Below are positions 2,050 through 63,960 of a stretch of DNA of 64,000 bases, piece after piece. Position numbers and translations under genes: made by a program. Source of the DNA: Sipunculus nudus (lineage: Eukaryota; Annelida; Sipuncula; Golfingiida; Sipunculidae); assembly GCA_026874595.1 (NCBI GenBank), contig CM049306.1:24915519-24979518 (forward strand), written 5' to 3'. A model generated the notes under the pieces. The model had not been told where the DNA came from. It ran no database searches and saw only the letters and a list, made by a program, of their open reading frames with translations. Every line of letters starts with the position of its first letter. Position 1 is the stretch's first letter.

Positions 2050-4485
2050 ACAAGTGACCCATGGGTCATGACACTCAGCTGCCAAGCATGACCTGTGACA
2101 TCATGGACTGAGATTCACAACTTCCAGTCAAATTTTGAAGAACCAATTTGCCAATTTGTTGAAAATTTTCTATGACAACAGAAATATATATCACCTATGT
2201 CTGGTTAAAACACAGTGAATTGATGGTCTGAGGAAAATGCATGATTGTTAAGCTATCAGGAACTATTCCAACAGCTTGCTTGAAACCTGTCAGTCTCAAA
2301 GGAACACCACAAAGGGCAAAAATAAGATCAAAATATATAGCAAAAATCAAGGAAATACATGCAAGAATTATTGAGAAACAGGTGCTTCTGTATGAATTTT
2401 TATTTAATACAAGCCAACTGTACTGCACTTTTATAAATGATGGTAATATTTATTCAGAAATATTTGACCCAATCCTTTACAATATTACATAAATATACAT
2501 CCAACTGCATTCACTTTAACTATTCTTGAGATAATATGATCAAAAGGAATTAAAAGATGGTTGCCTGGTGGCCATATTGGACTTCTGACAAGTCTAAAAT
2601 CAGACAACAAACATTCTCTAAATCGGACCAAACATTAAAGAAAAATTACTGAAACTGCACTAAAGAAAGAATTTCTAAGGTGGCTAACTGGCAGACATAA
2701 TGGATTTCTGACAAGTATGACATTTGATATCCCACATTCTCCAATAAGAGACCACACTTGGGGCAAATTATCCAGTAATGAATGCCCAAAATAATTCAAA
2801 AGGCATGTCCAGGCCCTCATATCAGATTTATAGATATGCAATTGTAAAAAGTGTAAGTCCAATATTTTTTATTATCACTCTGCTTTTCAATGGGGTCAGC
2901 AGGGTAGGTAAACTGCCAAACCTTAAAGAAAAGAAATGCAGAAAGCATGACTAAGAGTCTTGAAATGAAACAAAAAGCCATCCTAAATCAAGGTACACAT
3001 CCACATATTATGAGAACAAATACTTGCTTTTATATGTGGTGATACATATTAAAATATTCAGATATCTAGGAAACTAAGTTTATTGCTAGGATTCCATAAA
3101 ATAAACTGCAAAATGTTCCCATCATCTTATAAATCAGTAGCTAAACCTTAATACTATACTCTCATAGTCTTAATGCCTGGCTGAAGCATTCTGACAACAG
3201 TGTTTTTGTTATGAAGTAAGGAGGTACTTATCACTGAGCCTTATCACTTAATAGGCTGATACAAAAGGGAGTCATATGTCACCAGTGTCACTCACAATTA
3301 CAGCCACACAGGGAGATGTACCAGCTGGAGTGGGATGGTTATATATACAAGAAAAATAGAGATGGTCTATAAAATAAGTAATTGTGAACATCCCTGACCT
3401 ATGACCTTGGCCTTTTGCCCATATATCAACTGGATTCTTTCTAAATGATGGGTAACTACTAACCACTTAAATCTGGTGTAATTACTTGGCAACCAATGGG
3501 TGAATAACTTTGACCTGCAACCTTAAACCTGCTGACCAGCTGACCCCAAAATCAATAAGTTATTTATTCAAGCAAAAATACCAATAAATATGAAGTTTGA
3601 GTCAAACTGAGTGATGCATAGATGTGGCATATGTGAAAGACTGAAGGTTTGGGTTGAACAGTTACACTTGAAATATGCTCACAAGCATTTAGAACAATTA
3701 AATATTGTGACCTTGACCTTTGACTTTTTGACCTCAACATCAATAGGCTTCTTCCCTTTTTGGTAGGTAAGCCATATATGACAGATGGAAGGTACAGATT
3801 GAAAAGTTTGCCTGAAAATGACTCCACGCAAGAAGTGGGTGCTGTGAACTTGACCTTTGACCTCAAAATCAACAGGTCTTTTCCCCTGTTGGCAGAGAAG
3901 CGATATCAGTGCTGGAAAGTTTGGAATGAAAAGTCTAGCTTGAAATGTGTCCACAATCTTTTCAAAGAAGTGGATCCTGTGACCCTGACCTTTGACCTTG
4001 TGACCTCAAAATCTAAAGGATTCTTCTCCAACTTAGTAGGTGAGCTATATGTGAAAAATCAAAGTATTGGGATGAAATGGTTGGCTTAAAATGCATCCAC
4101 AGGCTTTTCAAAGAAGAGGCTCCTGTGACCTTGACCTTTGACCTTTTGACCTAAAAAAAATTATGGTTCTTCCCCTGTTGGTAGGTGAGCTGTATGTGAA
4201 AGATGGAAGATTTGGGATGAAAATTTTGTCTCAAAGAGTTATTTCTGGGGGGTGCAAACACACCCCATAACTTTGAGAATATAGGTCGCAGTGACCTAAT
4301 TTCAGGTTTGCAAGGAGATCTTTTTATAACCTCTAAGACTGCATAGGGTTCATGGCCCTAGCCCCTACGGTTACGATTTGTGCCCTGCTAACGGACGGCC
4401 GGCCGGATGGACAGACAGAAGGACGCCGGACAAAGACCCATCGCTATAGCCCAGCATGACTGAAAGTCAGCTGAGCTAAAAAAAA
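2050..4485 (+). mobile_element. Helitron-like (HINE/pearl-type) element, family a
   Basis: The 5' end reads ACAAG followed by a 14-base perfect palindrome (TGACCCATGGGTCA, 2055-2068) and CTCAGCTG at 2074-2081. The 3' end has a GACGG-rich run (about 4390-4432), then an imperfect hairpin at 4447-4478 whose right arm contains CAGCTGAG, the reverse complement of the 5' motif, then an A run. This is the plan of the family d elements at 14801 and 35391. Internally there is a diverged two-unit repeat around 2555-2800 and a TGACC-rich tandem array at 3695-4250. That both ends belong to one 2.4 kb insertion is inferred from end matching; the middle may contain unrelated sequence. There is no coding capacity. 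Confidence 0.6.
3695..4250 (+). repeat. TGACC-rich tandem array, ~140 bp units
   Basis: Four diverged units of about 135-145 bases begin near 3709, 3844, 3979 and 4125. Each opens with a TGACC(T)TTGACCTTTGACC block, followed by a CAATAGG/TTCTTCCCC segment, GGTAGGTGAGCTATATGTG and GGGATGAAA. The array is the core of the family a element. A related array is at 48590-49220. Perfect TGACCTTTGACCT blocks occur at 3851, 3986 and 4132. Confidence 0.8.
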
Positions 4486-4500
4486 CATGTTTTTGTTTCG

Positions 4501-4905
4501 CAGGGCTTGATATTAATTTATTATTTTAATATCTGCCAAGTAGGGCAAGTGACAACTAGCTTTTTCTTGCCCTACATGAATTTTTACTTGTCCAACAAAA
4601 TCAGTAATCATGGCCACAACCATAAAAAATTCGATCCACATGATTTTTTTTGTTATTTTTCTCTTTTGCATTTCAATAGATTAAAACATGCATGTAATCA
4701 AAGCTAGAGGTTTTTAAATATGATTTCACTTCTCCAGAAAAGAAAGTGGCCAACTTGAGATTGGTCAAGATTCATGCCTTTGTGTAAAGGTTTATGTTGC
4801 ACCCACTTTCACAGACGGGCAACTAGGAATTAACCCACTGTGGGTTGCCCTACTACCATTTTTACTTGCCCAGGGCAAGCGGTTAACCATTAATGTCAAG
4901 CCCTG
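4501..4905. mobile_element. MITE with CAGGGCTTGA terminal repeats, copy 1
   Basis: The left end CAGGGCTTGATATTAA and right end TTAATGTCAAGCCCTG are inverted repeats of 16 bases with one mismatch. Flanks TTTCG (left) and TTTCA (right) suggest a five-base target duplication with one change. The interior is rich in GGGCAAGT / ACTTGCCC motifs. The element lies 15 bases after the 3' end of the family a element. No transposase is encoded. The CAGGG terminus is common among hAT-type elements, but the apparent five-base duplication does not fit the usual eight, so no superfamily is assigned. Confidence 0.75.
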
Positions 4906-5210: not shown

Positions 5211-6430
5211 ACTAGACATTTCTTGGCACCGCTGGTGCCATAGTATCGCCAGAAAAATGAGGATTTGTGGTATTTTGTTGATATAATGTGATGTATTTGT
5301 ATTTTAGCAATGAATGTGAGAAACATTTGTACAAAATATAGGAATATTTTGGATTGGGAAGGACAATTGATCAAAGGGTTTTTGACTTATAATGCTCACA
5401 GTGCTGTCAAGTGGCCCTTTTTAAGATATTCATGATTTTGTTTTTCACCAAATATGGGAATATTCAAGGTCAAGGTCACTCTCATAGTCACGGTCATGAC
5501 CCCAAATCAATAAACTGCATTCCAAAATATCCAACATTTGAAAAAAAAAATTAAATTAAAAAAAAATAATTTAAATTAAATTAAATTTTAAAATTAAATT
5601 TAAAATAAAATATACCTCATTCCATAAACCATATCTATATACATGCATAACATGAAAGAAATCTGTCCATTACTGTTTGACTTATAATGCTCACAGTATA
5701 TACTGTCAAGTGGCAATGATGGGGTATTCAAAGGCGCAAAAAACAAGAAAAGGACAACAGGTGGCGCCACCTATCTTCTGCAAAAGACAAAACTATCCAA
5801 GATCTTCCGTCAACTTGATTTTTGGACCAATCCATGTATCCCTTTTTAAGATATTCATGAATTTATGTGATTTTCACCATATATGGTAATATTCAAGGTC
5901 AAAGCCACTCAAAGGAAAGGTCATGACCCCAATTTTAATATACATCATCCCATAACCCATACCTATGTACATGCATAATATTAAAGAAATCTGTCAATCA
6001 GTTTTTGACTTGTGATGCTAAAAGTACTGTCAAGTGGCAATGATGGGGTATTAAACGGCACAAAAACAAGAAAAGGATACTAGGTGGCACCACCAGTTTC
6101 TGGTACATGACATCACTATCCAAGATCTTTGTCCAACTTGATTTTTGGATAAATCCATGAAAGATTTCTTGAGATATTTTAGAATTTGTGTGATTTTCCC
6201 CAAAAATGGATCTATTCAAGGTCAAGATCATTCTCCTAGTTGAGGCCATGACCCCATTTTAAATAGGCTTCGTCCTCTCACCTTTATCTATAAATGTGTC
6301 AAGTTTGAAAAAGATCCTTGAAATATTTTTTTAGTTATTGTGTCCAAAAGATATCTCTGCGGGGGCGGCGGCGGCGGCGCAACCGTGCCTAAACCATAGT
6401 ATCTCCAGACTATGTCTGGCGATACAATTA
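5211..6430 (+). mobile_element. Helitron-like element, family b
   Basis: The 5' end starts ACTAGACATT, with a hairpin TGGCACC-GCT-GGTGCCA at 5224-5240 and GTATCGCCAGA at 5243-5253. The 3' end has a GGC-rich run at 6359-6380, then a hairpin at 6399-6425 with left arm GTATCTCCAGAC, loop TAT and right arm GTCTGGCGATAC. The right arm contains TCTGGCGATAC, the exact 11-base reverse complement of the 5' motif. The body holds tandem units whose shared start (GACTTATAATGCTCACAG) recurs at about 5383, 5679 and 6007, with a GGTGGCGCCACC core at about 5760 and a variant near 6085. An AAATT-rich simple repeat sits at 5530-5620. It is non-coding. Confidence 0.78.
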
Positions 6431-7378: not shown

Positions 7379-7562
7379 ACAAGGCCTACAGGCCTAATGC
7401 AAACCTGTGCAAAGTTTGGGAGTATGAATGGAGGTTTATTTTTAAAATTTAATATTGATCCTTTTAAGTCCTGCATATCTACCTTAGTCATTATGATTTC
7501 AGCAAAATGGACCTTTCGGACCTGGAAGTTTCAGACTAGGACATTTTAAACTAGAATACGGG

Positions 7563-7579
7563 TAGTCGACAAGCGACTA
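7563..7579 (+). repeat. 5' hairpin of the nested family h head
   Basis: TAGTCG-ACAAG-CGACTA forms a perfect six-pair stem. The equivalent at 17270-17284 reads TAGTCA-GAG-TGACTA, with both stem sides changed so pairing is kept. At 42451-42467 one side is mutated. Confidence 0.75.
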
Positions 7580-7699
7580 TGTGTATCCGCAGAAATCAGA
7601 GTGGGACGGGTGAAGTGAGGCATGGATTAAGTAGCAAGGGGAAAAGCGTGAGGTGTGTTGCATATTAGCATGGATGTCTGCAGAGTAAACATGAATGTA

Positions 7700-9420
7700 G
7701 GTGGTGCCACCTGTCATAAAATGTAGAAGCCTGTCCAGGATGTATAAACCTGCAAAATTTCAGGTGGTAAGTCAAACCACTTCTGAGGTATGAGTGATTT
7801 TATCCCAAGGCAGATGAACAGATAGACGCTGTGTATATGTGGTTGCAGGTGGCACCACCGGTTTTACCTGTGATGAAGAGCTATGTGAGATCTATACACA
7901 TGTAAAATTTTGGCCCAATCAGTCTAACGGTTCCCGAGATATGAGCTTGGATGTCTGCAGAGTAAACCTGAATGTAGGTGGCGCCACCTGTCAAAAAATT
8001 GAGAAAGCTTTCCAGGATGCATAAACCTGCAACATTTCAGGTGGATATGTCAAACCACTGCTGAGATATGAGTGATTTTACGCTAGGCAGATGAACAGAT
8101 GGATGCTGTGCATAAATGGTTGCAGGTGGCCCCACCAGTTTTGCCTATGATGAAGAGCTATGTGAGATCTATACACATGCAAAATTTTGGCCCAATTGGT
8201 CGAACGGTTCCCAAGATATGAGCTTGGATGTCTGCAGAGTAAACCTGAATGTAGGTGGCGCCACCTGTCATAAAATTGAGAAAGCTTTCCAGGATGTATA
8301 AACCTGCAACATTTCAGGTGGATATGTCAAACCACTGCTGAGATATGAGTGATTTTACGCCAAGGCAGATGAACAGATGGATGCTGTGCATAAATGGTTG
8401 CAGGTGGCCCCACCAGTTTTGCCTATGATGAAGAGCTATGTGAGATCTATACACATGCAAAATTTTGGCCTAATTGGTCAAACAGTTGCCGAGATATGAG
8501 CTTGGATGTCTGCAGAGTAAACCTGAATGTAGGTGGTGCCACCTGTCATAAAATCAAGAAAGCTGTCCAGGATGTATAAACCTGCAAAATTTCAGGTGGA
8601 AAAGTCAAACCACTGCTGAGATGTGAGTGATATCATCCCAAGGCAGATGAACTGATGGACGCTGTGCAAAAATGGTTGCAGGTGGCACCACCAGTTTTGC
8701 CTATGATGAAGAGCTATATGAGATCTATACACATGCATAATTTTGGCCCAATCGGTCAAACAGTTCCCAAGATATGAGCTTGGATGTCTGCAGAGTAAAC
8801 GTGAATGTAGGTGGCGCCACCTGTCATGAATCGAGAAAGCTGTCCAGGATGTATAAACCTACTTAATTTCAGGTGGATAAATCAAACCACTGCTGAGATA
8901 TGAGTGATATCATCCCAAGGCAGATGAACAGATGGATGCTGTGCATAAGTGGTTGCAGGTGGTGCCACCAGTTTTGCTTATGATGACGAGCTATGTGAGA
9001 TCTATACACATGCAAAATTTTGGCCCAATCGGTCAAACAGTTCCCGAGATATGAGCTTGGCATAGATATGAGTGAGGCATGGATTGTGGCAAGGGGAATA
9101 GCGTGAGGTGTGTTGCATATTAGCATGGATGTCTGCAGAGTAAATCTGAATGTAGGTGGTGCCACCTGTCATAAAATCGAGAAAGCTGTCCAGGATGTAT
9201 AATCCTGCAAAATTTCAGGTGGATAAGTCAAACCACTGCTGAGATATGAGTGATATTATCCCAAGGCAGATGAACAGATGGACGCTGTGCAAAAATGGTT
9301 GCAGGCGGCACCACCATTTTTAGTGTATGTTATAAAGCTATCAAAGGGCTACATTTGTGCAAAATTTTAAGCCCGATCGGTCAAACGGTTCCCCAGATAT
9401 GCTGATTTATGTGTGGAAAC
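7700..9420 (+). repeat. 277 bp tandem array with GGTGGCGCCACC cores
   Basis: About six units repeat every 277-278 bases, anchored at 7700, 7977, 8254, 8531 and about 8808, with a last one near 9155. Each unit has two GGTGGYGCCACC palindromes, followed by TGTCATAAAATCGAG and by AGTTTTGCCTATGATGA respectively, about 129 and 148 bases apart. Both halves carry CAAAATTT and GAGATATGAG at matching positions, so the unit is an old dimer of roughly 138 bases. The 61-residue frames at 7839, 8116 and 8394 are a by-product of this repeat, not genes. Near 9075-9135 a copy of the leader sequence (7615-7680) interrupts the array. Confidence 0.9.
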
Positions 9421-9595
9421 GGACGCACAAATGGACGCTGGGCACGAGGAAAGGTCAGAGGTCAATCAAAAATGAGGGCGTACCAGATCACATGTGACCT
9501 GATGATAAACCCAATTCACTTAAAATGCAATTAAACCAAGTTTTTTCAAACAGTTGAAAGATATAGTTCCAATCATCTGGGAATTCTGCATCTAA

Positions 9596-9655
9596 ACATT
9601 GTGTCTAGACATCTAGACACTGTGTCTAGACGTCTAGACACATTGTTTAGACACA
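9596..9655. repeat. TCTAGAC palindrome cluster
   Basis: Five TCTAGAC-type motifs occur in about 60 bases, including the 18-base perfect palindrome TGTCTAGACGTCTAGACA. A diverged counterpart is at 44405-44466 in the second family c copy. Confidence 0.85.
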
Positions 9656-10194
9656 CACCCCCCAGAGCCAGGTCAGTTGCCATGGTGATGTCTGGACCCA
9701 ACCTGTTTGTATTGAGTGACCTCTTGACTTGGCTGCTGAAACTCAGCATGGGGTCAAATCTGTTTTCAAATACAGAAAGCCTTTTTCAATTGGCTACAAT
9801 TTTTTTTTAAAACTGTATTTACCCAATCTATTCTTATAAAACTGGCAGAACCCTGCCATAGAATAATTCTTGTAAAGTTTAAACCAATCAGCTTAACAGT
9901 TTCATCATATTAGAAATATTGGACAATTTGGCTGGACAGTTTCAGAGAAGAAGATTTTTAAAGGTTTTTAAAGCTTTTTCTCTTTAAAATCTAAATTAAT
10001 GCAGATACCCAATAATAAGCTCCAGGGCACCAAGTTTCACGTGTGACTAATTCTTACATGTAATTTGGAGCTGCTAGCTCCGACGGTTTCTGACTTACAG
10101 CCATGGACGGCGGAAAGCCAGCCCTGGACGGTGGACGGCTGACAATGGAAGGACGACGCTGCGCCATCGCATAAGCTCACAGGTTCGCTTAAAA

Positions 10195-13100: not shown

Positions 13101-13204
13101 TTTTAAATACCCTATATATGGGAACCCTATAATCTAGTGAACTAGTCCATGTAACACAAATATAGAGTATCATTTCATCAAGATGAATACTGAAGCATAT
13201 ATAT
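10195..13204. other. Unassigned AT-rich DNA
   Basis: No gene recognised. The only structure noted is an 18-base direct tandem repeat (GGAGGTAAGAAATGGTTT twice, 11152-11187). The ORF of 85 codons near 12238-12495 on the minus strand has no recognisable similarity. Confidence 0.5.
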
Positions 13205-14224
13205 GTCACAGGCGAAATTAGAATCCAGGCGGATTTAAAATCCTCCTCGGCGAGATTGAAATTTTGATTTCGCCTAGGCGAGATTACAATTTCAATCTCG
13301 CCTAGGCAGATTTAAAATCTGCCTAAGCAAAATTGAAATTCTGATTCCGCCTAGGCGAGATTAAAATCCTTTTATGATTATATGCCGGATTTCAATCTTG
13401 TCTAGGCGGATTTTAAATCTTGCTTTTAATCTGCTTCATTCAATTCTTTGGTTTATTCATGCTGATTGTTTCATAATAATTGCAGTTTATTCTCACAGTT
13501 GGCGTGGAGAGATTTATCTGTTGAGAATTGTATATCTGAACATCTTAATGAATAGGACCATTTTAGGAATTTAAGATCTGCCCCGGCCAACAAGAGGAAA
13601 ATTTTGATTTTGCTTTGTTTTAAGTGTAAGTCTTACAGAAACTTTGGACTTTGAAAGATCAGTTTATTAAGAACACTATATCTTAATGAACATAAAAAAT
13701 AAATGGATTTTTATAATCATTGATGCTAAAGAAAGCTTTACAGAAGTGATGGAGTTTTTTCTGACAGGTGGGTGAAATTTAAAAAAAGGTATACAGGTAT
13801 ATTTTCAGTCTGATTTTTTTTTCAGGTTTCAGCATTTATTTTTTGCCTTGGCAAATAACATTAGCTTTTTGGCTTTTTATTAGCTGAAAGGGGCAAGGAA
13901 GATACAGGTATTTGAATATTTTAGTTATTTGAATTATTTATTATAAATGGTGCATACTGCATATTTTAGGTTGTGATTACCATGTAGTTATGGAATTACT
14001 AAATGTTAAATATAATAAAAGAGTATCTTTTTATACATGTGTTCTTGTTAGTTACTCTCAGAATATACATTTCCTAGTCTGTTTAATTCCCTCATTTATT
14101 TATAGAATAATATCTGTAATTTTTGCAGCTACTCAATGTTCAGAGGCTCAAATGTTCTTGTGTTCACTTAAAAGAAATAGGGAAAAAAAATACATCTTAA
14201 CAATAAGGTTGAGATATTCTTAAG

Positions 14225-14800: not shown

Positions 14801-16631
14801 ACAAGGGACCTATGGGTCACTGTGCTCAGCTGACGTTAACCTTGAAGGTAAAAATCTAAAATAATATCTAATGGAGATAAAGTGTAAGAGGAAGAGGTAA
14901 TAAAGGCCATGGTTAGTTTATATGATTGGTTTGTATTGATGAGCAAGAAATTGTTGCAAAAAATATTTTGTGACCTGACCATGTGTTTCCTAATGTTGAA
15001 ACTAAAGCATGTGAGCAGTTTGTGAACAAATGATCTGTACTATTACCATGATCATTAGTTGGTTTTTCGATTAACTGTTATTATAAATATATATGTATTT
15101 TTTTATGAAATGTATACAGTTGAAATATAGCTAATTAACAACATAAAACAGGGCAAACAAAGCCTGATCTCAAATTCTGCTGAGGCAGGAAAATAATGAA
15201 CAAATGTTTGTATTAAATCCTGATTTTTTTATCACATCAATTATTTTCTAATTTAAGTTTATATTTCTATACATTTTCAATATAACATATATATCTGAAT
15301 ATAAAAGTTGATTCATAATTCTCAATTGCATCATCATAAATCTCAATCTTGTCAGATAACACCACATCATGCATACAAATGTTTATTTATTTTTTACCAC
15401 AAAAATATATCTTTTAAATCTGCAAAACAATAAATATCTAAAAATAATACTTGATTTAGATTTCACAATTTTAAATTGTGTCTTTATTTATCCATAATGT
15501 GCTTCATATTTTATAACAATTTAAGCATACTGATGGGTTCATTTATATTTGTTAAAATCATTTAAAAGAAAATTGATTTCTTTAAAAATGCTACATTACA
15601 CAACATTGCATCTTCTGGATTACACCTTGAATTATTTTTTCAAGGAAAGTTTTTGCATATCGGAGTGGAAACAGCATTTCAATTAAGGAGATACAGTGAA
15701 AACAATAACAATTACTGCATAACACTTGGTGGGTTGGGGGGGGGGGGGGGTGATTGGGGTGGTGATATGAGAATAACTGTACACATGTCACAGCAGGGGA
15801 TCTCCCCCAGTAACTGTAACAAATCAGAAACCCTGGCATAGCTGACTTCCAGTGACCTGGAGTGGGACCCTGCATCTGTAATCAAAGCAAGCAACTACAG
15901 AAAAAAAAATCAATAACTAACTTAATTTTCAAGCTTTTATTTTCAAATTTCAGATTTAGACAAACTAAATATTTATGTTTACATGCTGTGAAAATTAAAT
16001 CAATGGTGCTTACAGGAAAAAAACGTGTCATGGTCAAAGTTGGGCAAAATTTAAGGTACTGATTTTTTTTTATGCTAATAACTTAAAAAATTTACAAAAT
16101 TCAGATCTAATTTTGGGTAAACAATTGAATCTTAATTAAACATAGTTATATACTTGAGAAAATAGACTTTAGTTTCAAAATTTTTCATGTTAAGTGAGTT
16201 ATTATTTTTCCTGATTTCTTACAAAGTCCATTATGTTTGGGCCCATAACTTAAAGAATTTATACTTTACAGACTTAATTTCTGGCATGTACATATGATCT
16301 ATATAGAGGAATATTAATGGTAAATATGAGGAAAAACAGATGAGTGGTTTTGATATTAGGCAGTCCTGAAGTGTGAAAATAGGATTTTAATAAAAAATTG
16401 AGGTTTTTCCTTAATTTCTCAAAGGAACGAAGTCGCAAAGACCCAGTTTTCGGCTTGGTAGGAGATCTTGGGGGCATCTAACATTAGGCTGAATTTTGGA
16501 TTCCTAGGTCTCACGGTTTCAAAACGTGCCACATCTACGGACGGACGGACGGACGGACGGACAGACGGACGGACGACGGACAATGGACCACGACTATAGC
16601 TCAGATGACTTATAGTCAGCTGAGCTAAAAA
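14801..16631 (+). mobile_element. Helitron-like element, family d copy 1
   Basis: The 5' end is ACAAGGGACCTATGGGTCAC followed by GCTCAGCTGAC at 14824-14834. The 3' end has an ACGG run at 16537-16580, then a 14-pair hairpin with one mismatch at 16597-16627 (TAGCTCAGATGACT, loop TAT, AGTCAGCTGAGCTA), then AAAAA. GTCAGCTGAGC at 16615-16625 is the exact reverse complement of the 5' motif. A run of 15 G follows TTGGTGGGTT at 15736-15750. Copy 2 at 35391-37266 is similar over the full length. It is non-coding and lacks a core tandem array. Confidence 0.85.
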
Positions 16632-17256: not shown

Positions 17257-17526
17257 ACTAGAATACGGGTAGTCAGAGTGACTATGTGTATCCGCCGAAA
17301 TCAAAGTGGGACGGGTGAAGTGAGGCATTGATTGAGTAACATGGGGAAATAGAGTGAGGGGTGTTGCATATTAGCATGGATGTCTGCAGCTGCAATGTGT
17401 ATGTAAGTTGTGCCACCTACCACAAAATCCAGAAAGCTATCAAAGTTGTATACAAATGCAAAAAGTCAAACCACTGCCGAGATATGAGTGATTTTACTGG
17501 ACTTGTTGGTCTACTGACCAAGCTCT
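17257..17526 (+). mobile_element. Truncated family h head
   Basis: It starts ACTAGAATACGGG, with the hairpin TAGTCA-GAG-TGACTA (17270-17284) and GTGTATCCGCC, then the usual leader (GACGGGTGAAGTGAGGCAT) and about half of one 277 bp unit up to GAGATATGAGTGATTTTA. Similarity to the array fades shortly before the MITE at 17532. Confidence 0.8.
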
Positions 17527-17531
17527 ATATA

Positions 17532-17806: not shown

Positions 17807-17811
17807 ATATA

Positions 17812-21189: not shown

Positions 21190-22240
21190 ACTAGAATATC
21201 AGCAAAAGCTGACAAAAGCCCTCAGCCAAAAGAACAGTGTTTAGAGGTGGTAACAGTAACAAGTACTAAATATCTGTTCTCACATGGATGTATATCTGTA
21301 CATGTCTCAGTTATAAATTTAAAATGGAGAGGTATGTACCATGATTCATAACAATCCACCAAATTCTTCCTGAAAAATAAGCTTCTAAGTTTTATTCTAT
21401 TATAAGCTCTGTGACCTTGAAAAGTAGGTCAAGGTAATCCATCTTCGAACATGAACGAGATTTTTGTTGATATACATCTTCACCAAAGAAATAAAATTCC
21501 TATTGTGAATCCTTTTAGAGATATCCCGCTCACAAGGCCAAAGTTGAAAAATCCAAGAAAAATTCAATAAAAAATCAGAAATTGCAGGTGGCGCCTAAAA
21601 CTTGTGCAGCAGTTACACACCATCAGTCCCTATGATCATAGTAAGTATTGTGAAAATCCATCCAATGGTTCCTGAGAAATAAGCTTCTAAATGTTTTTTC
21701 TATAATCAGCTCTAAAACGTAGAAAAATAGGTCAAGGTCACCCATCTTCGAACTTGACCAAGATTTTGTCAATATACATCTTCACCGAAAAAATAAAATT
21801 CTTACGGTGAATCCTTTTCGAGATATCCCGCTCACAAGCCCAAAGTTGAAAAATCCGATAAAAATTCATTTAAAATCAGAAATTGTAGGTGGCGCCACCA
21901 AACTTGTATAGCAGGTACAGACTATCAGTCCCAATAATCATAGTAAGTTTTGTGAAAATCCACCAAATGGTTCCTGAGTAATAAGCATCTCAGTGTTTTT
22001 CTATAATCAGCTCTAAAATGTAGAAAAATAGGTCAAGGTCACCCATCTTCGAACTTGACCGAGATTTTGTTGATATACATCTTTACTGAGGAAATAAAAT
22101 TCTGACGGTGAATCCTTTTGAAGATATCCCCTTCACAAGGTAATAGTTAACGGACGCCGGACGGCCGGACGGACAGACGGACGGACGGACAGCTTGGGTG
22201 ACGACAATAGCCCATCAGCCTGAGGGCTGAGGGCTAAAAA
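21190..22240 (+). mobile_element. Helitron-like element, family e
   Basis: The 5' end is ACTAGAATATC with the palindrome TCAGC-AAAA-GCTGA at 21199-21212 and AGCCCTCAGCC at 21217-21227. The 3' end has a GACGG-rich run (about 22148-22192), then a hairpin TAGCCCATCAGCC / GGCTGAGGGCTA and AAAAA. GGCTGAGGGCT at 22225-22235 is the exact 11-base reverse complement of the 5' motif. The body has nearly three units of about 301 bases (marked by AGGTCAAGGT at about 21427, 21728 and 22030) with a GGTGGCGCCACC core and the shared CCAAATGGTTCCTGAG motif. Both flanks are GA-rich microsatellite. Confidence 0.82.
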
Positions 22241-23655: not shown

Positions 23656-24375
23656 ATGCAGACAGACCTGGTAACCCTGCCCTAAAATATGACACTAAAC
23701 TGATGTCATGCAGACAGACATGGTAACCCTGCCATCAAATTTGGACTGACATCATGCAGACAGACTAGATTACCCTTCCCTCAAATATGACACAGGACTG
23801 ACATCATGCAGACAGACTTTGTAACCCTGCCATCAAATATGACACAGGACTGACATCATGCAGAGAGACATGGTAACCCTGCCCCATTAATATGAAACAG
23901 GACTGATGTCATGCAGACAGACTTGATTACCCTGCCCTCAAATATAAAACAGGACTGACATCATGCAGACAGACATGGTAACCCTGCCATCAAATTTGAC
24001 ACTGGACTGATGTCATGCAGACAGACATGGTAACCCTGCCCCTTTAATATGAAACTAGACTGATGTCATGCAGACAGGCTTTGTAACCCTTCCATCAAAT
24101 TTGACACTGGACTGATGTCATGCAGACAGACTTGATAACCCTGCCCTCAAATATGACACAGGACTGACATCATGCAGGCAGATATGGTAATCCTGCCCCT
24201 TTAATATGAGACTGGACTGATGTCATGCAGACAGACTCTGTAACCCTGCCATCAAATTTGACACTGGACTGAAGTCATGCAGACAAACATGGTATCCCTG
24301 CCCTCAAATATGACCCTAGACTGATGTCATGCAGACAGACTTTGTACTCCTGCCTTCAAACATGACACCATTGTG
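23656..24375 (+). repeat. ~51 bp minisatellite, about 14 units
   Basis: Units start CATGCAGACAGAC and continue TGGTAACCCTGCC, (A)TCAAATATGACAC and GGACTGATGT. Starts fall near 23657, 23709, 23754, 23806, 23858, 23911, 23963, 24017, 24069, 24120, 24172, 24226, 24278 and 24328. Two variant middles (CATCAAATTTGACACTGG and CCTTTAATATGAAAC) alternate partly, suggesting a higher-order arrangement. Confidence 0.93.
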
Positions 24376-42265: not shown

Positions 42266-45261
42266 ACAAGGCCTACAGGCCTAATGCGAACCTGTGCAAA
42301 GTTTAGGAGTATGAATGGAGGTTTATTTTTAAAATTTAATATTGATCCTCCCAAGTCCTGCATATCTACCTTAGTCATTATGATTTCAGCAAAATGGATG
42401 TTTCTGACCTGCAAGTTTCGGACTAGGACATTTTAAAACCAGAATATGGGTAGTCGACAAGCCACTATGTGTATCCGCAGAAATCAGAGTAGGACGGGTG
42501 AAGTGAGGCATAGATTAAGTGGCAAGGGGAAAAGAGCGTGATGTGTTGCATATTAGCATGGATGTCTGCAGCTTAAACGTGAATGTAGGTGGTGCCACCT
42601 GTCATAAAATCGAGAAAATTGTCCAGGATGTATAAACCTGCAAAATTTCAGGTGGATAAGTCAAACCACTGCCGAGATATGAGTGATTTTATCCCAAGGC
42701 ATATCAACAGATGGATGCTGTGCATAAGTGGTTGCAGGTGGTGCCACCAGTTTTGCCTATAATGAAGAGCTATGTGAGATCTATACACATGCAAAATTTT
42801 GGCCTAATCGGTCAAATGGTTCCCAAGATATGAGCTTGGATGTCTGCAGAGTAAATGTGAATGTAGGTGGCGACACCTGTCATAAAATCGAGAAAGCTGT
42901 CAAGGATGTAAAATACCTGCAAAATTTCAGGTGGATAGGTTAAACCACTGCTGAGATATGAGTGATTTTAATCTAAGGCAGATGAACAGATGGATGCTGT
43001 GCATAAATGGTTGCAGGTGGCACCATCAGTTTTGCCTATGATGAAGAGCTATGTGAGATCTATACACATGCAAAATTTTGGCCTAATTGGTCAAACGGTT
43101 CCCGAGATATGAGCTTGGATGTCTGCAGAGTAAATGTGAACGTAGGTGGCGCCACCTGTCATAAAATCGAGAAACCTGTCCATGATGTATAAACCTGAAA
43201 AATTTCAGGTGGAGAAGTCAAACCACAGTTGAGATATGAGCGATTTTATCCCAAGGCAGATGAACAGATGGACGCTGTGCATAAGTGGTTGCAGATGGCG
43301 CCACCAGTTTTGCCTATGATTAAGAGCTATGTGAGATCTATACACATGCAACCTTTTTGCCCAATTAGTCAAATGGTTCCCAAGATATGAGCTTGGATGT
43401 CTGCAGAGTAAACGTGAATGTAGGTGGCGCCACCTGTCATAAATCGAGAAAGCTGTCCAGGATGTATAAACCTGCAAAATTTCAGGTGGATAAGTCAAAC
43501 CACTGCTGAGATATGAGTGATATTATCCAAAGGCAGATGAACAGATGGATGCTGTGCATAAGTGGTTGCAGGAGGCGCCACCAGTTTTGCCTATGATGTG
43601 ATGTGTGAGATCTATACACAAGCAAAATTTTGGCCCAATCGGTCAAACGGTTCCTGAGATATGAGCTTGGATGTCTGCAGAGTAAACGTGAATGTAGGTG
43701 GCGCGACCTGTCATAAAATCGAGAAAATTGTCCAGGATGTAAAATACCTGCAAAATTTCATGTGACAAAGTCAAACCATTGCTGAGATATGAGTGATTTT
43801 AACCTAAGGCAGATGAACAGATGGACGCTGTGCATAAATGGTTGCAGGTGGCGCCACCAGTTTTGCCTATGATGACGAGCTATGTGAGATCTATACACAA
43901 GCAAAATTTTGGCCCAATCAGGCAAACGGTTCCCGAGATATGAGCTTGGATGTCTGCAGAGTAAACATGAATGTAGGTGGCACCACCTGTCATAAAATCG
44001 AGAAAGCTGTCCAAGATTTATAAACCTGCAAAATTTCAGGTGGATAAGTCGAACCACTGCTGAGATATGAGTGATTTTATCCCAAGGCAGATGAACAGAT
44101 GGACACTATGCATTAATGGTTGCAGATGGCGCCACCATTTTCAGTATATGTTATAAAGCTATCAAAGGGCTACATTTGTGCAAAATTTTTAGCCTGATCG
44201 GTCAAACGGTTCCCGAGATATGTGGGTTTGTGTGTGGAAACAGATGCACAAATGGACGCTGGGCAGCAAGGAAAGGTTAGAGGTCAACAAAAAATGAGGG
44301 TGCAGCAGTTCACATGTGACCTGATGATAAACCAGATTCACTTAAAATGCAAACCAAGTTTTTTCTGAAAGATATAGTTCCAATAATCTGGGAATTCTGC
44401 ATCTATACATTGTCTAGATGTCTAGACGCTTTGTCTAGACATCAAGACACATTGTCTAGACACCCACCAGAGCCAGGTCAGTGGCCATGGTGATGTCTGG
44501 ACCCAACCTGTTTGTACTGAGTGACCCCTTGACTTGGCTGCTGAAACTCAGCATGGGGTCAAATCTGTTTTCAAACACAGAAAGCCTTTTTCAATTGGCT
44601 ACAATGCTTTTTTAAACCTGTATTAACCCAATCTATTCTTATAAAACTGGCAGAACCCTACCATAAAATAATTCTTGTAAAGTTTAAACCAATCAGCTTA
44701 ACAGTTTCATCATAAATCAGGGTATAAGCTGGAAGAGTTTAAAATAACATATTCGCTAGTACAAAACACATCAATGTAGGTGGCACCACCAATACCTCCA
44801 TTTCAGATATGACATATGTGACAAACATTGGTATAAAATTTGGTGATGATAGCTCTAGCAGTTTCTGAGATTTTAATTTTAGTCTGCTTTTTTGGACAGA
44901 TGACTAAGTTCAACCTCACGTAAATCGGCCAAAAATCTCCAAACTGGAACCATTCGAACAAACTTGAATGAGATCGTTTCAGGGATCATTTCTGTGAAAT
45001 ATTGGACAATTTGGCTGGACAGTTTGAGAAGAAGATTTTTAAAGCTCTTTTAGCTTTTCCCCTATAAAATCTAAGAAAATGTTGTTAGAAAAAAAATAAA
45101 CAAAATCCGATAGAGTTTTTCAGATGACTGATTATTTGCAAAAAATTTGGTGATGCAAGCTTCTGCCGTTTTTGAGATAGCTATGGTTAACTTACAGACT
45201 ACGCACACCGCACGACGGACGACGCCGCACCATCGCATAAGCTCACAGGTTCGCTAAAAAA
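42266..45261 (+). mobile_element. Composite Helitron-like element, family c copy 2
   Basis: The 5' end is ACAAGGCCTACAGGCC with GCGAACCTGTG at 42286-42296. The 3' end is CACAGGTTCGC at 45244-45254 then TAAAAAA, an exact 11-base inverted match. A GACGG/GACGACG-rich run precedes the tail. Inside are the family h head (about 42438), its 277 bp array, the TCTAGAC cluster and the same trailing segments as copy 1. An additional segment with a GGTGGCACCACC core (about 44710-44950) is absent from copy 1. Confidence 0.82.
42590..44240 (+). repeat. 277 bp tandem array, second copy
   Basis: About six units with the two-core structure of the 7700-9420 array. Unit starts recur every 277-279 bases (for example the shared ATG at 42728, 43007 and 43838). 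The 61-71 residue frames and the opposite-strand frames of about 97-99 residues are repeat by-products. Confidence 0.9.
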
Positions 45262-45550
45262 TTACACAATAATCTGACATAATTTCTTGTATGTTTATAG
45301 AAAATATATAAAGGAATATAATTATGTATATGAAATATGATCAAAAACAGATCAGTAGTTTTTATGGATTTTTAATGGAATATGCGGTTTTTCCTTAATA
45401 TCTCAAAGGAATGAAGTCTTAGTAACCCAATTTTGGGTATGAACAGAGATTTTGGGGACATCTAACTGTATATAAAATCTTAATTTTGGATTTGTAGGTT
45501 TCAAAACATGCCCTGTTAACAGATGAATTATAGTCAGCCGAGCTAAAAAT
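45262..45550 (+). mobile_element. Decayed family d 3' end
   Basis: Follows directly on the family c tail. It resembles 16330-16630 (CAGATCAGTAGTTTT, TTTTTCCTTAATATCTCAAA, GACATCTAACTG) and ends ATAGTCAGCCGAGCTAAAAA, a mutated family d tail without the ACGG run. Confidence 0.7.
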
Positions 45551-46321
45551 TTACAGGGATAGGTTTGGGAAAATGTAAAGTTTCAAATTGTGAAAGCAAT
45601 ATAATTCAAATCAAGTACAAATTGATAAATATATATATGTCAGAGACGAGATTAAAATCCAGGCGGATTTTAAATTCGCCTAAACAAGATTGTGATTGTG
45701 ATCTCGCCTAGGCGAGATTGCAATTGTGATCTCAGCTAGACAGATTTTAAACTCGCCTAGACGAGATCACAATCGCAATCTCGCCTAGACAAGATTAAAA
45801 TCCATCATGGAGCAGGCCATGATTTTAATCTCGCCTAGGCGAGTTTTAAATCTGTCTGGTGTCATCCAGGCGAGTTTAAAATCTGCCTGATATCACTTGG
45901 GCAAGTTTAAAATCTGCCTAGGCGAGATTAAAATAGTGATCTGATCTAATTTCCCAATAAATTATGCATTGTAATTGACTTATGAAAGATGTTTTCAGTC
46001 AGATTTTCAATATTTTAACACTGAATGGTTACGTATAGTTCCCAAGTAATATATTTATTAATATTTACAGAATATATTATTAATTAAATAATAATATTAA
46101 TTTGGAAATGGAATATTTTATATTATATATTTTTTATTAATATGGTTATGTATAGTTCACAAGTAATATATATTTAATATTATTTACAGAATATTATAAT
46201 ATTTATGTAATAATTAACATTAATTTTTTTATTTTATATTTTTATTTATAAACTATGTAATAAGAAACTTACATTGGTATTGTATATGGCATATTCAAAT
46301 GATATATGATGTGGGCTGCTG

Positions 46322-47080: not shown

Positions 47081-47909
47081 ATTGATTCAATATGCATGTG
47101 GATGACTTTTTCCCCCAGATTTGCTCTTCATAATATCTCATTAGTGTGCTTCAATATACCTCTTGTTACTCTCTAATTGCCATATATTTAAATACAATTA
47201 CAAATTATTTTTTTTTTGTAAAAATTATTAGTGATATTTACAATCCCAAGGTTGTTAAGAAAACTGGAGAAAAAAAATAAAGATTAATTAATGTTTAGCA
47301 AATAATTGGTATGATAAGGATGCTGTAGACCACATGAAACACATCAAAGGTTCAAATAATAATCAAATATCTATTTCATAATTATGTTTCCAAAATTAAT
47401 GTTAATTATCACACGAATAATTATTACATTACTGTAAAAAAGTTAATTATTACATTAATACTATAATATTCTGTAAATATTAATAAATAAAAAATATATT
47501 ACCTTTTAACTATATATAACCATTCAGTGTTAAAATATTGAAAATCCGACTGAAAACATCTTTCATATGTCAATTACAATGCTTAATATATTAGGAAATT
47601 AGATCAGATCACTATTTTAATCTCGCCGAGGCAGATTTTAAACTCGCCTAAGTAATATCAGGCAGATTTTAAACTCGCCTGGATGACACCAGACGGATTT
47701 AAAACTCGCCTGGGCAAGATTAAAATCCTGGCCTGCTCCATGATGGATTTTAATCTTGCCTAGGCGAGATTGCGATTGTGATCTCGTCTAGGCGAGTTTA
47801 AAATCTGTCTAGCCGAGATCACAATTGCAATCTCGCCTAGGCGAGATCACAATCGCAATCTCGTCTAATCGAATTTAAAATCCGCCTGGATTTCAATCTC
47901 GTCTCTGAC

Positions 47910-51145: not shown

Positions 51146-52110
51146 ACAAGGGACCAATTGGTCACTGTGCTCAGCGAAGTTGACCTTGAAGGTAAAAATC
51201 TAAAATATATCAAATGAAGATAAAAAGTCTGAGAGGAAGAGGTAATATAGGCCATGGTTGGTTGTCAATGGTTGATATGATTGGTTTGTATTGATGAGTC
51301 AGAAATTGCTGCAAATAATATTTTGAGACCTGCACCTAACCATGTGTTTCCTAATGTTGAAACTGAAACATATGAGCAGTTTGTGAACATAAGATATGTA
51401 AAAGATAGGTATACTATTACCATGATCATTGGCTGGCTTTCTGAAATGTTGACAGTCGAGCAAATTACACACTGGTTCAATTTGATATATTTTCTTCATT
51501 ATATATTATTAAATATATATATTTTTTATTTTATAAAATGTATACGGTTGCAATATACCTATCAAAGTTTGATTCACAATTAAATGAATATCTAAAATTG
51601 GACAGACAGACAGGTAGACAAACAAAGCTGATCACTTTATTTCCCATTCTGCTGAGGCAGGAAAATAATATATTAAGAACAATCTTAATTTTTTTATTAT
51701 ATCAAATTGTTTTAAAATTTATAAACTGTATACATTTGCAATAATACACATTTGAAAATATAAGTTGCTTACAAATTTCAGACATGAATAGCTTAAAGCA
51801 TTACCAGTCTCAAGTACAAGATAAAGAGACCCAAGATCTATATGAACATGCAAAATTTCAGCCCAATACATTGCATCACTCCTGAGATATGGGTTGTTAT
51901 TTCTAATACACCCATATTCATACGACACAGAGAGGATTGCAGGTGGCGCCTGTAGTCTTTGTTATGCACAACTAGTGAGCAAATAACTATTCCGGGATCT
52001 GAAAGATCAGTCCAAGGTTCTCAGAGAAGTTCTCCTTAAAACAAAGGCCATGGCAAGCAGAACCTACCTAAAAACACAGTATCTGCAAAACTCTTGTTTT
52101 GGCATTACAA
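51146..52110 (+). mobile_element. Chimeric Helitron-like element (family d head, family h-like tail)
   Basis: From 51146 (ACAAGGGACCAATTGGTCAC) to about 51775 it follows family d copy 1 (14801-15320): same GAGGAAGAGGTAATA, CCTAATGTTGAAACTGA and CTGCTGAGGCAGGAAAATAA. From about 51830 it follows family h: CATGCAAAATTTCAGCCCAA, GAGATATGGG, GCAGGTGGCGCC, TCTCAGAGAAGTTCTCC, and the tail ACAGTATCTGCAAAAC / GTTTTGGCATTAC near 52076-52106. The two ends do not carry matching subterminal repeats, so it is a hybrid or a nested remnant. Confidence 0.7.
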
Positions 52111-59810: not shown

Positions 59811-60460
59811 TTCTATATATGTGTCGAGGCCGAGATTAAGCCGGCCATACATGTGGCGACATGTCAACATTATATTGATAAATTGTGTTATTTCTTTGAA
59901 AGCTGAAGGTTATGTTCGGTGCATGTTGTTTTTATCATAGTTTTGCAGGACATGTTGCAGAACATGTCTCTGTGTTTATGGACTGATCTTGTTGTGCAAC
60001 ATGTCGCAGAACATTCGTGATCTGCGACATGTCGCGCCACATGTCACCTCGTGTATGGCCGGCTTTAGAATCTGGCCCAATTTAAAACTAGGCTAGCCCA
60101 GGTCAAAATTTTGATTTGGACTGGCCCAGATCAAAATTCTAATCTGGGCCAGCCCAGTTTTAAACCAGGCTAGCCCAGATTAAAATTTTGATCCGGGCCA
60201 GTCCAGATTAAAATCCTGTGGTGAAGACTTCAGGATTTAAATCTGGTCTGGACTGCTTTTAAACTGGGCTGGCCCACATTCGCATTTTGATCTGGGCTGG
60301 TTAAGTTTACAATCCTGTGGTGGATTGATTTTAAACTGGGCTGGCCCAGATCAAAATTTTAATCAGCGCTAGTCAAGATTACAATCCTGTGGTGGACTGA
60401 TTTTAAACTTGGCCTAACCAGATCAGAATCCTAATCTAATCTTAGGCTAGCTTGATTTTT
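59811..60460 (+). mobile_element. One arm of a diverged fold-back element (G), split by a MITE
   Basis: Without the MITE, the sequence reads GTGTCGAGGCCGAGATTA then GAATCTGGCCCAATTTAAAA, parallel to the outer ends of fold-back copies E and F. The palindromic module is GGCC-rich (CTAGCCCAG / CTGGGCTGGCCC) instead of CGCCTAGGCG, alternating with TTTTAAAC and GATCAAAATTTT motifs. AATCCTGTGGTGGA repeats three times at roughly 70-80 base spacing. No inverted second arm is found before the window ends. Confidence 0.65.
59839..60064. mobile_element. Harbinger-like MITE (TTA target duplication)
   Basis: Left end AGCCGGCCATACATGTGGCG and right end reverse complement AGCCGGCCATACACG form terminal inverted repeats. 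TTA flanks both sides (59836-59838, 60065-60067), and removing the element and one TTA restores the GAGATTAGAAT phrase expected from fold-back copy E. The interior is full of ACATGTCGC motifs. A three-base TTA duplication fits the PIF/Harbinger superfamily (established knowledge); no transposase is encoded. Confidence 0.8.
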
Positions 60461-60773: not shown

Positions 60774-61947
60774 ACTAGAATACGGGTAGTCGACAAAATC
60801 AGAGAAGGACGGGTGAAGCGAGGCATGGATTGAGTGGCAAGGGGAAATAAAGTTACATGTGTTACATATTAGAATGGATCTCTGCCACATAAACATGATT
60901 GTAGGTGGCGCCACCTGTTATTTGAACGAGAAAATATCCAAGATGTATACACATGCAAAATTTCATGTGGAAAAGTCAAACCACTGCAGAGATATGAGTG
61001 ATTTTATCCCACAGCAGACAAACAGATGGACGCTGTGCAAAAATGGCTGCAGGTGGCGGCACCATTTTTGTGTATGTTATAAAGGTATCCACGGGCTACA
61101 TTTGTGTATAATTATTTTCCTGATTGGTCAAACGGTTCCAGAGATATAAGCATTAATGTATGCAGCGTGAACGTGAATGTAGGTGGCACCACCTGTCATA
61201 AAATCAAGAAAGCTATCCAGGATGTATACGCATGCCGAAATTACAGGTAATTTAGTCAAACCACTGCAGAGATATGAGTGATTTTATCCCAAGGCAGACA
61301 AACAGATGGACGCTGTGCAAAAATGGCTGCAGGTGGCGGCACCATTTTTATGTATGTTATAAAGCTATCCAAGGGCTACATTTGTGTAAAAAATTTTTTC
61401 CTGATTGGTCAAACGGTTCCCGAGATATGAGCTTGGATGTCTGCAGCGTGAACGTGAATGTAGGTGGCGCCACCTGTCATAAAATCAAGAAAGCTATCTA
61501 GGATGTACATGCATGCCGAATTTTAGGTGAATTAGTCAAAACACTGCAGAGATATGAGTGATTTTAACCCAAGGCAGATGAACAGATAGACACTGTGCAA
61601 ACATGGTTGCAGGTGGCGCCACCTTTTTTTGTGCATGTTATAAAACTATCCCAGGGCTACATTTGTGTGAAAAATTTTTCCTGATCGGTCAAACGGTTCC
61701 CAAGATATGTGGGTTTATGTGAGGAAACAGACGCACAAACTGACGCTGGGCAGAGAGGAAAAGGTCAGAGGTCAAGGTCACTTGGTTAGGCACCAGTTCA
61801 CATGTGACCCGATAATTTGTGTAAGTTTCGGAAAAATCTGTCCAGTAGTCTCAGAGGAGTTCTCCGGAAACGAACGCAGCGGCGGCGGCGGCGGAACCTG
61901 GTCAAAAACATAGTATCTGCAAAACTTCGTTTTGGCGGATACAATTA
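60774..61947 (+). mobile_element. Helitron-like element, family h copy 1
   Basis: The 5' end is ACTAGAATACGGGTAGTCGAC, but the second half of the 5' hairpin and the GTATCCGC motif are deleted. The body has about 3 units of 277-284 bases with GGTGGCGCCACC cores. The 3' end has a GGC run (about 61879-61894) and a hairpin GTATCTGCAAAAC-TTC-GTTTTGGCGGATAC at 61913-61942, then AATTA. It is tail to tail with copy 2 at 62767-63960. Short frames across it are repeat by-products. Confidence 0.85.
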
Positions 61948-62766
61948 CATGTGTAATATTAAATATATACATGCATGCATAATTAAAAACCAGCTTTACT
62001 CATTTATAAGTGAACAAAAGTAATTTATCAGTCTTGATGCTCATTTGGGTGATCTGCATGACATTGTGCCCTAATATGGGGCTAGGGAGAGCTTTGTGAT
62101 ACCATTACTGTAATTGTCAATAGCAGAAAATCCTCAGCTGAGAAAATGATATTATTGCTGTCATTTGGCAGTCTCAAAAATAGTGGTGAATATGCGTAAA
62201 AATTGGATAAGAATTTTATCTCAGAGGGTGACAAACATGGTGGAGGTTTCACTTTGGAGTAAATAACTTAAAAAAAAGCTAATCTATTAACTAATAACTA
62301 ATCTAAATTGAAGATAGTTAAATGCTGCAATACAAATATTCTCTTCCTTCAATTGTTAAAATACTGAGTTGGTGAATATTGTTCCCACTGTTCTATCTAA
62401 ATATATTATGATCATGTTTATAATTCACACAAATTAGCAAATATCAAACTAATTTATGTACACTAGATATATATTTTTCTGTTTGCTAAATTTCAGTCAC
62501 CTAATTTCAATGACTTAAGTTCAGGTATCTTAATAGATGTTTCAGGGCCTTCTTTCCTTAATGTGTAGTATGTTCTAAGTTCTAGGTCCAACGTTACAAT
62601 ATGTGCAAATTTTTTAATGGGTGACTGGGGGTGGGGGGGGGGGGGGAAGATCCCATACCAAAAACCCCAACTTATGATAAATGATAAATAACTTTAAATA
62701 ACAAATAAAATTTGGAATTTACAGGTCTTGGATCACAAGCTTAACATTGTGTAACATATATATTAA
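61948..62766. other. Spacer between two inverted family h elements
   Basis: Unassigned AT-rich DNA with a run of 14 G at 62633-62646. Confidence 0.6.
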
Positions 62767-63960
62767 TAATTGTATCCGCCAAAACAGAGTTTTGCGGATA
62801 CTATGTTTTCAGCTGCACACAGCCGCTGCCGCTGCCGCTGCCGAGTAGGTGTCAGGAGAACTCCTCTGTAACCGCTGTGCAGAATTTTACGAAACCCGGG
62901 ATTATGTTCGGGTCACATGTGAACTGCTGCGCCCCGATTTTGTTTTGACCTCTGACCTTTCCTCTGCGCTCTGCGTCCGTTTGTGCCTCTGTTTCCACAC
63001 ATAAACCCACATATCTCGGGAACCGTTTGACCGATCAGGAAAATATTTTGCACAAATGTAGCCCTTGGAGAGCTTTATAACATACACAAAAAATGGTGGC
63101 GCCACCTGCAACCATGTTTGCACAGTGTCCATCTGTTCGTCTGCCTTGGGTTAAAATCACTCATATCTCTGCAGTGATTTGACTAATTCACCTGAAATTT
63201 GGCATGCGTATACATCCTGGATAGCTTTTCTGATTTTATGACAGGTGGCGCCACCTACATTCACGTTTACGCTGCAGACATCCAAGCTCATATCTCGGGA
63301 ACCGTTTGACCGATTGGGCCAAAATTTTGCATGTGTATAGATCTCACATAGCTCTTTATCATACGCAAAACTGGTGGCGCCACCTGCAGCCATTTTTGCA
63401 CAGCTCCTGTCTGTTTGTCTGCCATGGGAAAAAATCACTCATATCTCGGCAGTGGTTTGACATATCTGCCTAAAATTTTGCAGGTTTATACATCCCCGAC
63501 AGCTCTCTTGATTTTATGACAGGTGGCGCCACCTGCATTCTAGTTTATGCAGCAGACATCCAAGCTCATATCTTGGGAACCGTTTGCCTGATTGGGCCAA
63601 AGTTTTGCATGTATATAGTTCTCACATAGCTCTTTATCATACGCCACACTGGCTGTGCCACCTTCAACCATTTTTGCACAGCGTCCAACTGTTTGTCTGC
63701 CACGGGCTAAAATCACTCATAAACATATAGTGGTTTGACTTATCTGCCTCAAATTTTGCATATGTATACAACTTGGACGGCTTTCTGGATTTTGTGGTAG
63801 GTGGCGCAACCTACATACACCATTTGGCTGCAAACATCCATGCTAATATGCAACACTTTACTCTATTTCCCCTTGCCACTCAATCCATTCCTCACTTCAC
63901 CCGTTCCACTCTGATTTAGGCGGATACACGTAGTCGCTTGTCGACTACCAGTATTCTAGT
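62767..63960 (-). mobile_element. Helitron-like element, family h copy 2 (most complete)
   Basis: Read on the minus strand the 5' end is ACTAGAATACTGG, with the hairpin GTAGTCG-ACAAG-CGACTAC (63930-63948) and TGTATCCGCC (63919-63928). The 3' end has GCAGCGGCAGCGGCAGCGGC, then the hairpin GTATCCGCAAAAC / GTTTTGGCGGATAC and AATTA. GGCGGATACA at the 3' end (62771-62780) is the exact reverse complement of the 5' motif. The body has the two-core 277 bp unit in about three copies. It is the best reference copy of the family, non-coding. Confidence 0.87.

Follow-up and report, generated by a model that had tools for sequence, protein, structure and literature searches.

Repeat families in the window

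The stretch of the Sipunculus nudus genome analysed here (the window; 64,000 nucleotides of contig CM049306.1, here C1:24,915,519-24,979,518) contains five families of repeat elements that are interpreted below as Helentron-associated interspersed elements (HINEs). Each family carries near its left end a motif whose reverse complement recurs near its right end (subterminal inverted repeats, subTIRs), and is designated by that motif: F1 (AGCCCTCAGCC), F2 (GCTCAGCTGAC), F3 (GTATCGCCAGA), F4 (GCGAACCTGTG) and F5 (TGTATCCGCC). A first-pass annotation, made from the letters of the window, had named six families with such ends and five exact inverted pairs. All five pairs are present at the positions given below, and F1 to F5 are retained; the sixth family was not separately identified. 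Genome-wide searches spanned 1.43 Gb.

Unless stated otherwise, the following elements lie on the minus strand. The F1 element (21190-22235) has its right tip at 21190, its right subTIR at 21217-21227, its left subTIR at 22225-22235 and 302-bp repeat units at 21353-22139. An F2 element occupies 14801-16625 (tip 14801, right subTIR 14824-14834, left subTIR 16615-16625, the last adjoining an ACGG run); a second copy at 35388-37260, without a right tip, has the motif at 35399 and the left subTIR at 37250-37260, and an F2-type element with 146-bp repeats extends from 2047 to 4476 (right tip about 2050, left subTIR 4466-4476). The F3 element (5211-6425) has its right and left subTIRs at 5243-5253 and 6415-6425, together with a GGC run. 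F4 is present at 42266-45254, with subTIRs at 42286-42296 (right) and 45244-45254 (left), 279-bp repeats and a relic F5-type right end within, and in a second copy at 7379-10188, within which an F5-type right end lies at about 7550-7580. F5 is found at 62771-63960 on the plus strand (left subTIR 62771-62780, right subTIR 63919-63928, tip 63960), the sole plus-strand element among those counted in the window, and in a second copy at 60774-61945 on the minus strand. Recurrences of the motifs in the window represent further copies (F2 at 4466, 35399 and 37250; F4 at 10178; F5 at 17287 and 61934).

Structure and polarity of the ends

A sequence consisting of GTCAGCTGAGC, a palindrome and CTTGT is located downstream of a Rep/helicase open reading frame (ORF), on the same strand. 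Therefore, the end that had been called 5' in the first-pass annotation is the 3' end, and the polarity given there is inverted: its 5' tip is the terminal CTAGT or CTTGT, followed by T, behind the palindrome. In the true orientation, the left (5') end consists of a T-run or AT, the subTIR directly behind it, an inverted near-copy of the subTIR in four of the five families, and a microsatellite-like run. At the right (3') end, the inverted subTIR is followed by a short palindrome, which lies 3-13 nt before the end of the tip, and then by CTAGT or CTTGT, usually with a T after it (60 of 65 copies). The near-copy is absent from F4 and has one central mismatch or bulge in each of the other families, in which the distant right subTIR, unlike this adjacent inverted repeat, matches the left subTIR exactly. 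The end formerly called 3' does bear the motif ascribed to it, and in these four families it additionally bears an imperfect inverted copy of its own motif. Central tandem repeats lie between the ends, the flanks are T-rich, and no clear target site duplication (TSD) is seen.

Some variation was observed among the copies. The left hairpins of two F2 copies (L083 and L088) have their loop lost or lengthened, as if by slippage between both arms, and 7 of the 15 F3 copies read (L055, L058, L059, L062, L063, L064 and L065) form a subfamily in which a poly-G run precedes the right subTIR by about 8 nt.

Queries across the tips of F1, F2, F4 and F5 were run against the whole genome, with the best 40 of 1128-1977 first-look candidates taken for each; the F3 border was examined by pattern only. 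The match extends to the tip in all 156 listed places outside the window, and ends inside the supplied 10-50 nt flank in 155 of them. At the listed places, the right borders of these four families hold. Exact right ends number 530 (F1), 560 (F3), 7360 (F4) and 7209 (F5) genome-wide, and the F2-type left 15-mer has 36,365 matches. Reversed controls for these five patterns gave 0 matches each.

Pairing of the ends

The longest exact left-right inverted match between the window's own ends is 11 bp in each of F1 to F4 and 10 bp in F5, as against 4-7 bp in all 20 combinations of ends from different families. Families unlike in sequence thus share one pairing plan, as had been proposed from the window's letters, and the 5' and 3' motifs are matched by family.

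A total of 66 places were read, of which 59 were fetched and seven lie in the window. The copies had been picked as best right-end matches or by exact right-end patterns, and the left ends by template, so that the pairing rates are conditional on these choices. A template-like left end was recovered in 37 copies, among which the pairing is exact in 29, has one mismatch in six and two mismatches in two. Exact pairs were found in 10/11 copies of F1 (15 read), 6/6 of F2 (12 read), 2/3 of F3 (15 read), 2/5 of F4 (9 read) and 9/12 of F5 (15 read). The 29 copies without a template left end include two altered F2 copies and one F1 copy cut at its left end; the remaining 26 were not assigned. None of the 37 copies with both ends has compensatory changes at the two ends. 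Therefore, it appears that pairing is held by the founders of families and not by the individual copies.

Rep/helicase loci

A search with PF14214 yielded at least 143 Rep matches, and for 31 Rep loci (6 + 8 + 17) the DNA lying downstream was read. A right end was recognised at 11 of these, and a degenerate one at L022. The combination of GTCAGCTGAGC, palindrome and CTTGT lies downstream of Rep at A3 (L003), D15 (L015), L030 and L031. ATTCAGCTGAGC is followed by CTTGT at A5 (L005) and by CTAGT at L024, L027, L028 and L029, the assignment being less sure at L027 and L029 because each has a second F2-type end. CCAGCGGGGGC is followed by CTAGT at L016 and L038, the sequences of which are identical up to and including the tip but not past it. 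Judging from strand and distance, each right end is probably that of the Rep gene lying upstream. For L001-type Rep loci, the DNA as far as about 7 kb past the ORF yielded no convincing right end. All four scanned ORFs (A1, A2, A3 and A5) contain Rep and PIF1 domains. The endonuclease domain scores above the Pfam cut-off in A1 and A2 and slightly below it in A3 (23.3 vs 24.5 bits), the endonuclease part of which aligns to that of A1 at E 9e-10.

The right end of the F2-type element at 2047-4476 is 92% identical over 39 bp to that of A3. The interior of A5 matches three F2-type copies (79% over 143 bp, 75% over 178 bp and 74% over 125 bp), and its terminal 40 bp are 90% identical to those of the F2 element at 14801-16625, which gives the 143-bp match. 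Rep/helicase loci bearing the right end of F2, one of them with related interior DNA, are a new observation, and these loci are likely to be the partner group for F2. In the portion of the 2020 oyster paper drawn on here, the mobilising partners of HINEs are left unresolved (PMC7492417), and among later papers, judged from listings alone, none was recognised as settling them. An F5 copy was also observed upstream of the A3 Rep ORF (L007:709-1539), in the same orientation.

One clade of the Rep tree (96/99) contains the four GTCAGCTGAGC loci and L004, to which no end type is assigned. The ATTCAGCTGAGC loci are placed outside this clade, partly without resolution. The CCAGCGGGGGC pair branches off deeply and separately, next to the L001 group; one of its two members covers 48% of the columns. 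The end types broadly follow the Rep lineages, a pattern that fits coevolution but plain descent as well.

F4 and its F5-like body

F4 and F5 share repeats of the 278-bp type. In addition, an F5-type right end lies inside F4's own right end, 172 bp in for seven of nine copies and 171 bp for one (window 7379), in which the inner F5-type tip is intact and the subTIR altered; in the copy at L094 the F5-type right end is at 2.8 kb. In the window, the inner F5-type right ends are at 42438-42549 and 7550-7656, and the other copies are L093-L099. An F5 left end was seen in none of the nine copies, in four of which the reading stopped short of the copy's own left end. F4's own ends are a matched pair different from that of F5. 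F4 looks as if it was made by swapping both ends, and provides a better natural test of coevolution than the Rep tree.

Nature of the elements

The first-pass assignment to HINEs agrees with the subTIRs, the 3' palindrome, the inverted copy and microsatellite run, the central tandem repeats, the T-rich flanks and the Rep/helicase genes. The families are very probably HINEs, that is, non-autonomous Helentrons that Rep/helicase/endonuclease proteins move in trans.

Elements that are short and non-coding and carry an inverted motif close to each end might also be miniature inverted-repeat transposable elements (MITEs) belonging to a cut-and-paste transposon, with the paired motifs as the terminal inverted repeats of the latter, and pearl elements were earlier described as MITEs (PMC7492417). 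A slight excess of 4-mers common to both borders (19 of 36 copies vs a mean of 13.1 in shuffled flanks, reached by 0.016 of the shuffles) points the same way, and so counts against HINEs. However, in the same 36 copies common 5-8-mers are not above shuffled flanks and a constant TSD of that length is lacking, the symmetry of the ends does not extend past 10-11 bp, and the same right end is found at the Rep/helicase loci, which makes a MITE origin highly improbable. Only marginally less so is membership in the canonical Helitrons, in which a 3' CTRR and a hairpin are combined with insertion between A and T. The CTAG tip behind the palindrome in F1, F3, F5 and several Rep loci does fit CTRR, but the elements start with a T-run or AT instead of TC, subTIRs are present at both ends, and the endonuclease domain occurs in three of the four scanned ORFs (in one of them slightly below the cut-off).

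Several other results weigh against the HINE interpretation, or against the proposed partnership with Rep. The subTIRs are identical over 11 bp in F1 to F4, whereas those of F5, at 10 bp, are one bp short of the published 11. The tips CTAGT and CTTGT both occur within one Rep clade, and the tip is therefore not a lineage mark. The endonuclease had no match in the A5 ORF as scanned. The proposed search for an autonomous Rep/helicase element with the same ends gave the right end of F2, downstream of Rep/helicase ORFs. Left ends were not found in 6.5 kb upstream of L005 for A5, in 5 kb upstream of Rep for D16 or, for A3 and A4, in the 2.5 kb preceding the pieces that were fetched first. Among the 31 Rep loci read downstream, none was recognised as a partner for F1, F3, F4 or F5.

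If the families are HINEs, Rep would read the subTIR at both ends, a nick would be made in a T-rich target and one strand peeled, and the process would stop at the palindrome and tip. Each new family would inherit its end pair as one unit, and a new family could arise when both ends are replaced together, as in F4 around its F5-like body. Copies, once inserted, decay freely. The first-pass annotation had further suggested that terminal recognition coevolves by family. In its favour, the end types broadly track the Rep tree; as a rule, it had already been published, since Thomas et al. (2014) defined a Helentron family by subTIRs that are identical over at least 11 bp (PMC4067079). The pairing rule is thus already in use for classifying Helentrons, and the core finding adds families to a known class. 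New here are the Rep/helicase loci that form a likely partner group of F2, the broad agreement of end type with Rep lineage, the F5-type right end kept within F4, an apparent end-swap family, and the strand domains described below; the polarity is corrected as well. As a mechanism, coevolution has partial support: only two deep end types are tied to Rep genes, no autonomous left end was found, and no copy has matched changes at both ends.

The mechanism, as distinct from the identity of the elements, may also be explained by descent only, with the pair fixed at the founding of a family and inherited, without ongoing selection on pairing or coevolution with Rep. Unpaired changes in 8 of 37 copies, with matching changes at both ends in none, are consistent with descent only, as is the small difference in ends among close Rep relatives. 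On the other hand, F4 and F5 have common repeat bodies but differ at both ends, and the pairing is exact across five families with unrelated ends. Descent only is considered a substantial possibility, though a somewhat doubtful one.

Cg_HINE and pearl elements were compared by published description, not by sequence. Pearl elements carry a tetranucleotide run, a likeness shared with the families described here, and HINEs spread satellite-like repeats through oyster-type genomes. As described in the portions of the literature drawn on here, the Cg_HINEs of Crassostrea gigas resemble the present elements in having a left subTIR with a complementary inverted repeat and a microsatellite (GTCY, GTCC or GTCK in several of them), a right subTIR with a palindrome, central tandem repeats and, apparently, a TT-rich target, no TSD being reported for the Cg_HINEs, and pearl elements of bivalves likewise have central tandem repeats between flanking modules (PMC7492417). 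In contrast, no autonomous element could be related to the Cg_HINEs there, whereas here the F2 right end lies on Rep/helicase loci, one of which matches in its interior too. The Helentrons and HINEs of Metaseiulus, Culex and Drosophila, including DINE-1, share subTIRs (11-15 bp) and the 3' palindrome, and probably also the TT preference and a Rep/helicase/endonuclease partner (PMC4067079). The position of the palindrome differs, about 8-35 bp from the end in mite HINEs (PMC4067079), whereas here 3-13 nt separate it from the end of the tip (CTAGT or CTTGT). The proto-Helentron of Phytophthora infestans has a similar 5' TT and 3' CTAG, but inserts between A and T (PMC4067079), while T follows the tip in 60/65 copies here. 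The F2 right end on Rep/helicase loci, the several end types and F4 provide matched substrates for asking whether Rep reads the subTIR.

Strand orientation

In the window, 13 of 14 separate elements lie on the minus strand (two-sided binomial test, 0.0018). In this count, the F2-type ends at 40.9 and 45.5 kb stand for a single element, and any F5 end within F4 is included with F4; a weak minus end at 59730 and three plus left-end matches (6396, 16594 and 37229), which are the other arm of minus hairpins, are omitted. A skew in TT targets was considered as the cause and is insufficient, as AA:TT outside the elements is 5076:4761.

At the beginning of C1, Helentron ends of several families keep to a single strand over distances of as much as about 1 Mb and then switch (C1:96437-2950000). 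The pattern lists are limited to 100 places each and hence cover C1, or C1 and C2; the F2-type left-end list was used below 1.09 Mb of C1. Between 0.096 and 1.091 Mb, 114 of 115 listed ends are minus (F2-type left 76/77, F4 right 28/28, F5 right 10/10), and when places no more than 10 kb apart are merged, 26 of the resulting 27 clusters are purely minus. Recent duplication as the cause of the block at 0.1-1.1 Mb is unsupported (121 recurrent offsets vs a mean of 139 after jittering), with the qualification that neighbouring F2-type ends can be part of one array. Between 1.2 and 1.5 Mb, all eight listed ends (five F4, three F5) are plus, and between 1.69 and 2.95 Mb, all 13 listed F4 and F5 ends are minus. 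Five F2-type left ends among the matches listed for the latter region are all plus, minus matches there being probably not covered. The strand labels were confirmed in two fetched pieces.

A pooled cross-family test was applied to the listed places of F1, F3, F4 and F5 beyond 1.2 Mb, with rotation as the null. Cross-family pairs 3-50 kb apart are on the same strand in 68 of 90 cases (null 0.50, S. D. 0.067; reached in 0 of 1000 rotations), those 50-100 kb apart in 70 of 116 (P 0.054), and those 100-200 kb apart in 104 of 185 (P 0.14). A runs test on C1 1.2-8 Mb, with places thinned to more than 10 kb, gives 22 changes among 79 places vs 39 when shuffled (P 0.00015). Other observations oppose strand domains. 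The strands are mixed at 1.5-1.69 Mb, and the runs test for 8-14 Mb fades when places are thinned to more than 20 and 50 kb (P 0.11 and 0.28). Outside C1 0-14 Mb, 8 of 12 cross-family pairs separated by 3-50 kb are on the same strand, a count based on 124 of the 143 Rep matches and, for each DNA search, on 36-39 of the 39 matches beyond the window, and ends of other elements around Rep loci are on the same strand as Rep in three cases and on the opposite strand in three. Support for strand domains beyond the first 14 Mb of C1 is weak. In a MITE control, the strand is the same in 6 of 14 pairs separated by 3-50 kb, which is too few pairs to weigh; a second MITE pattern (2630 matches, of which 100 exact places on many contigs were listed) has, as judged by eye, too few close pairs.

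By analogy with the bacterial IS200/IS605 elements, the orientation of which follows replication (PMC5371812), it might be speculated that Helentron insertion is strand-directed over chromosome domains, so that unrelated families inserting within tens of kilobases to a megabase of one another would be oriented alike, a single-stranded DNA intermediate entering one template strand of a directional process, most simply at the replication fork; this explanation is tentative and, on balance, unlikely. The main rivals for the same strand pattern are unistrand clusters of the PIWI-interacting RNA (piRNA) type under selection, unistrand piRNA clusters being known (PMC10643416), and orientation relative to transcription. 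A narrow search of the literature, in listings and the openings of abstracts, turned up no report of Helitron or Helentron strand domains. These domains are the part of the results most worth following. If fork-directed insertion is real, HINE orientation would preserve, like a fossil, the past direction of replication forks in a large eukaryotic genome, and if the domains hold genome-wide and track replication, fork direction could be read from a plain assembly through the orientation of transposons.

Other features of the window

Further HINE ends and fragments on the minus strand are an F5 right-end fragment (17257-17495), an F2/A3-type right end (33713-33748), an F2-type right end with adjoining interior (51146-51400) and an F5-type left-end fragment (52068-52103). 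An F2-type right end at 40887-40923 and a left end at 45520-45550 (40887-45550, minus strand) probably belong to one element, within which an F4 copy has been inserted. Ten of the ORFs listed for the window had no match in Pfam, and scans of the window for tRNAs and against Rfam had none.

A probable MITE, non-coding and dispersed, the inverted ends of which resemble TTTAAAGGG, is present at 30271-31017 of the window and at L033 and L099; one 17-mer of it has 850 matches in the genome. A 52-bp tandem array of about 14 copies, which has no link to HINE ends, extends from 23655 to 24368. A separate palindromic repeat with 28-bp units (CCTAGGCGAGATT type) is found at 13197-13369, 45631-45803, 47746-47882 and 60044-60216.

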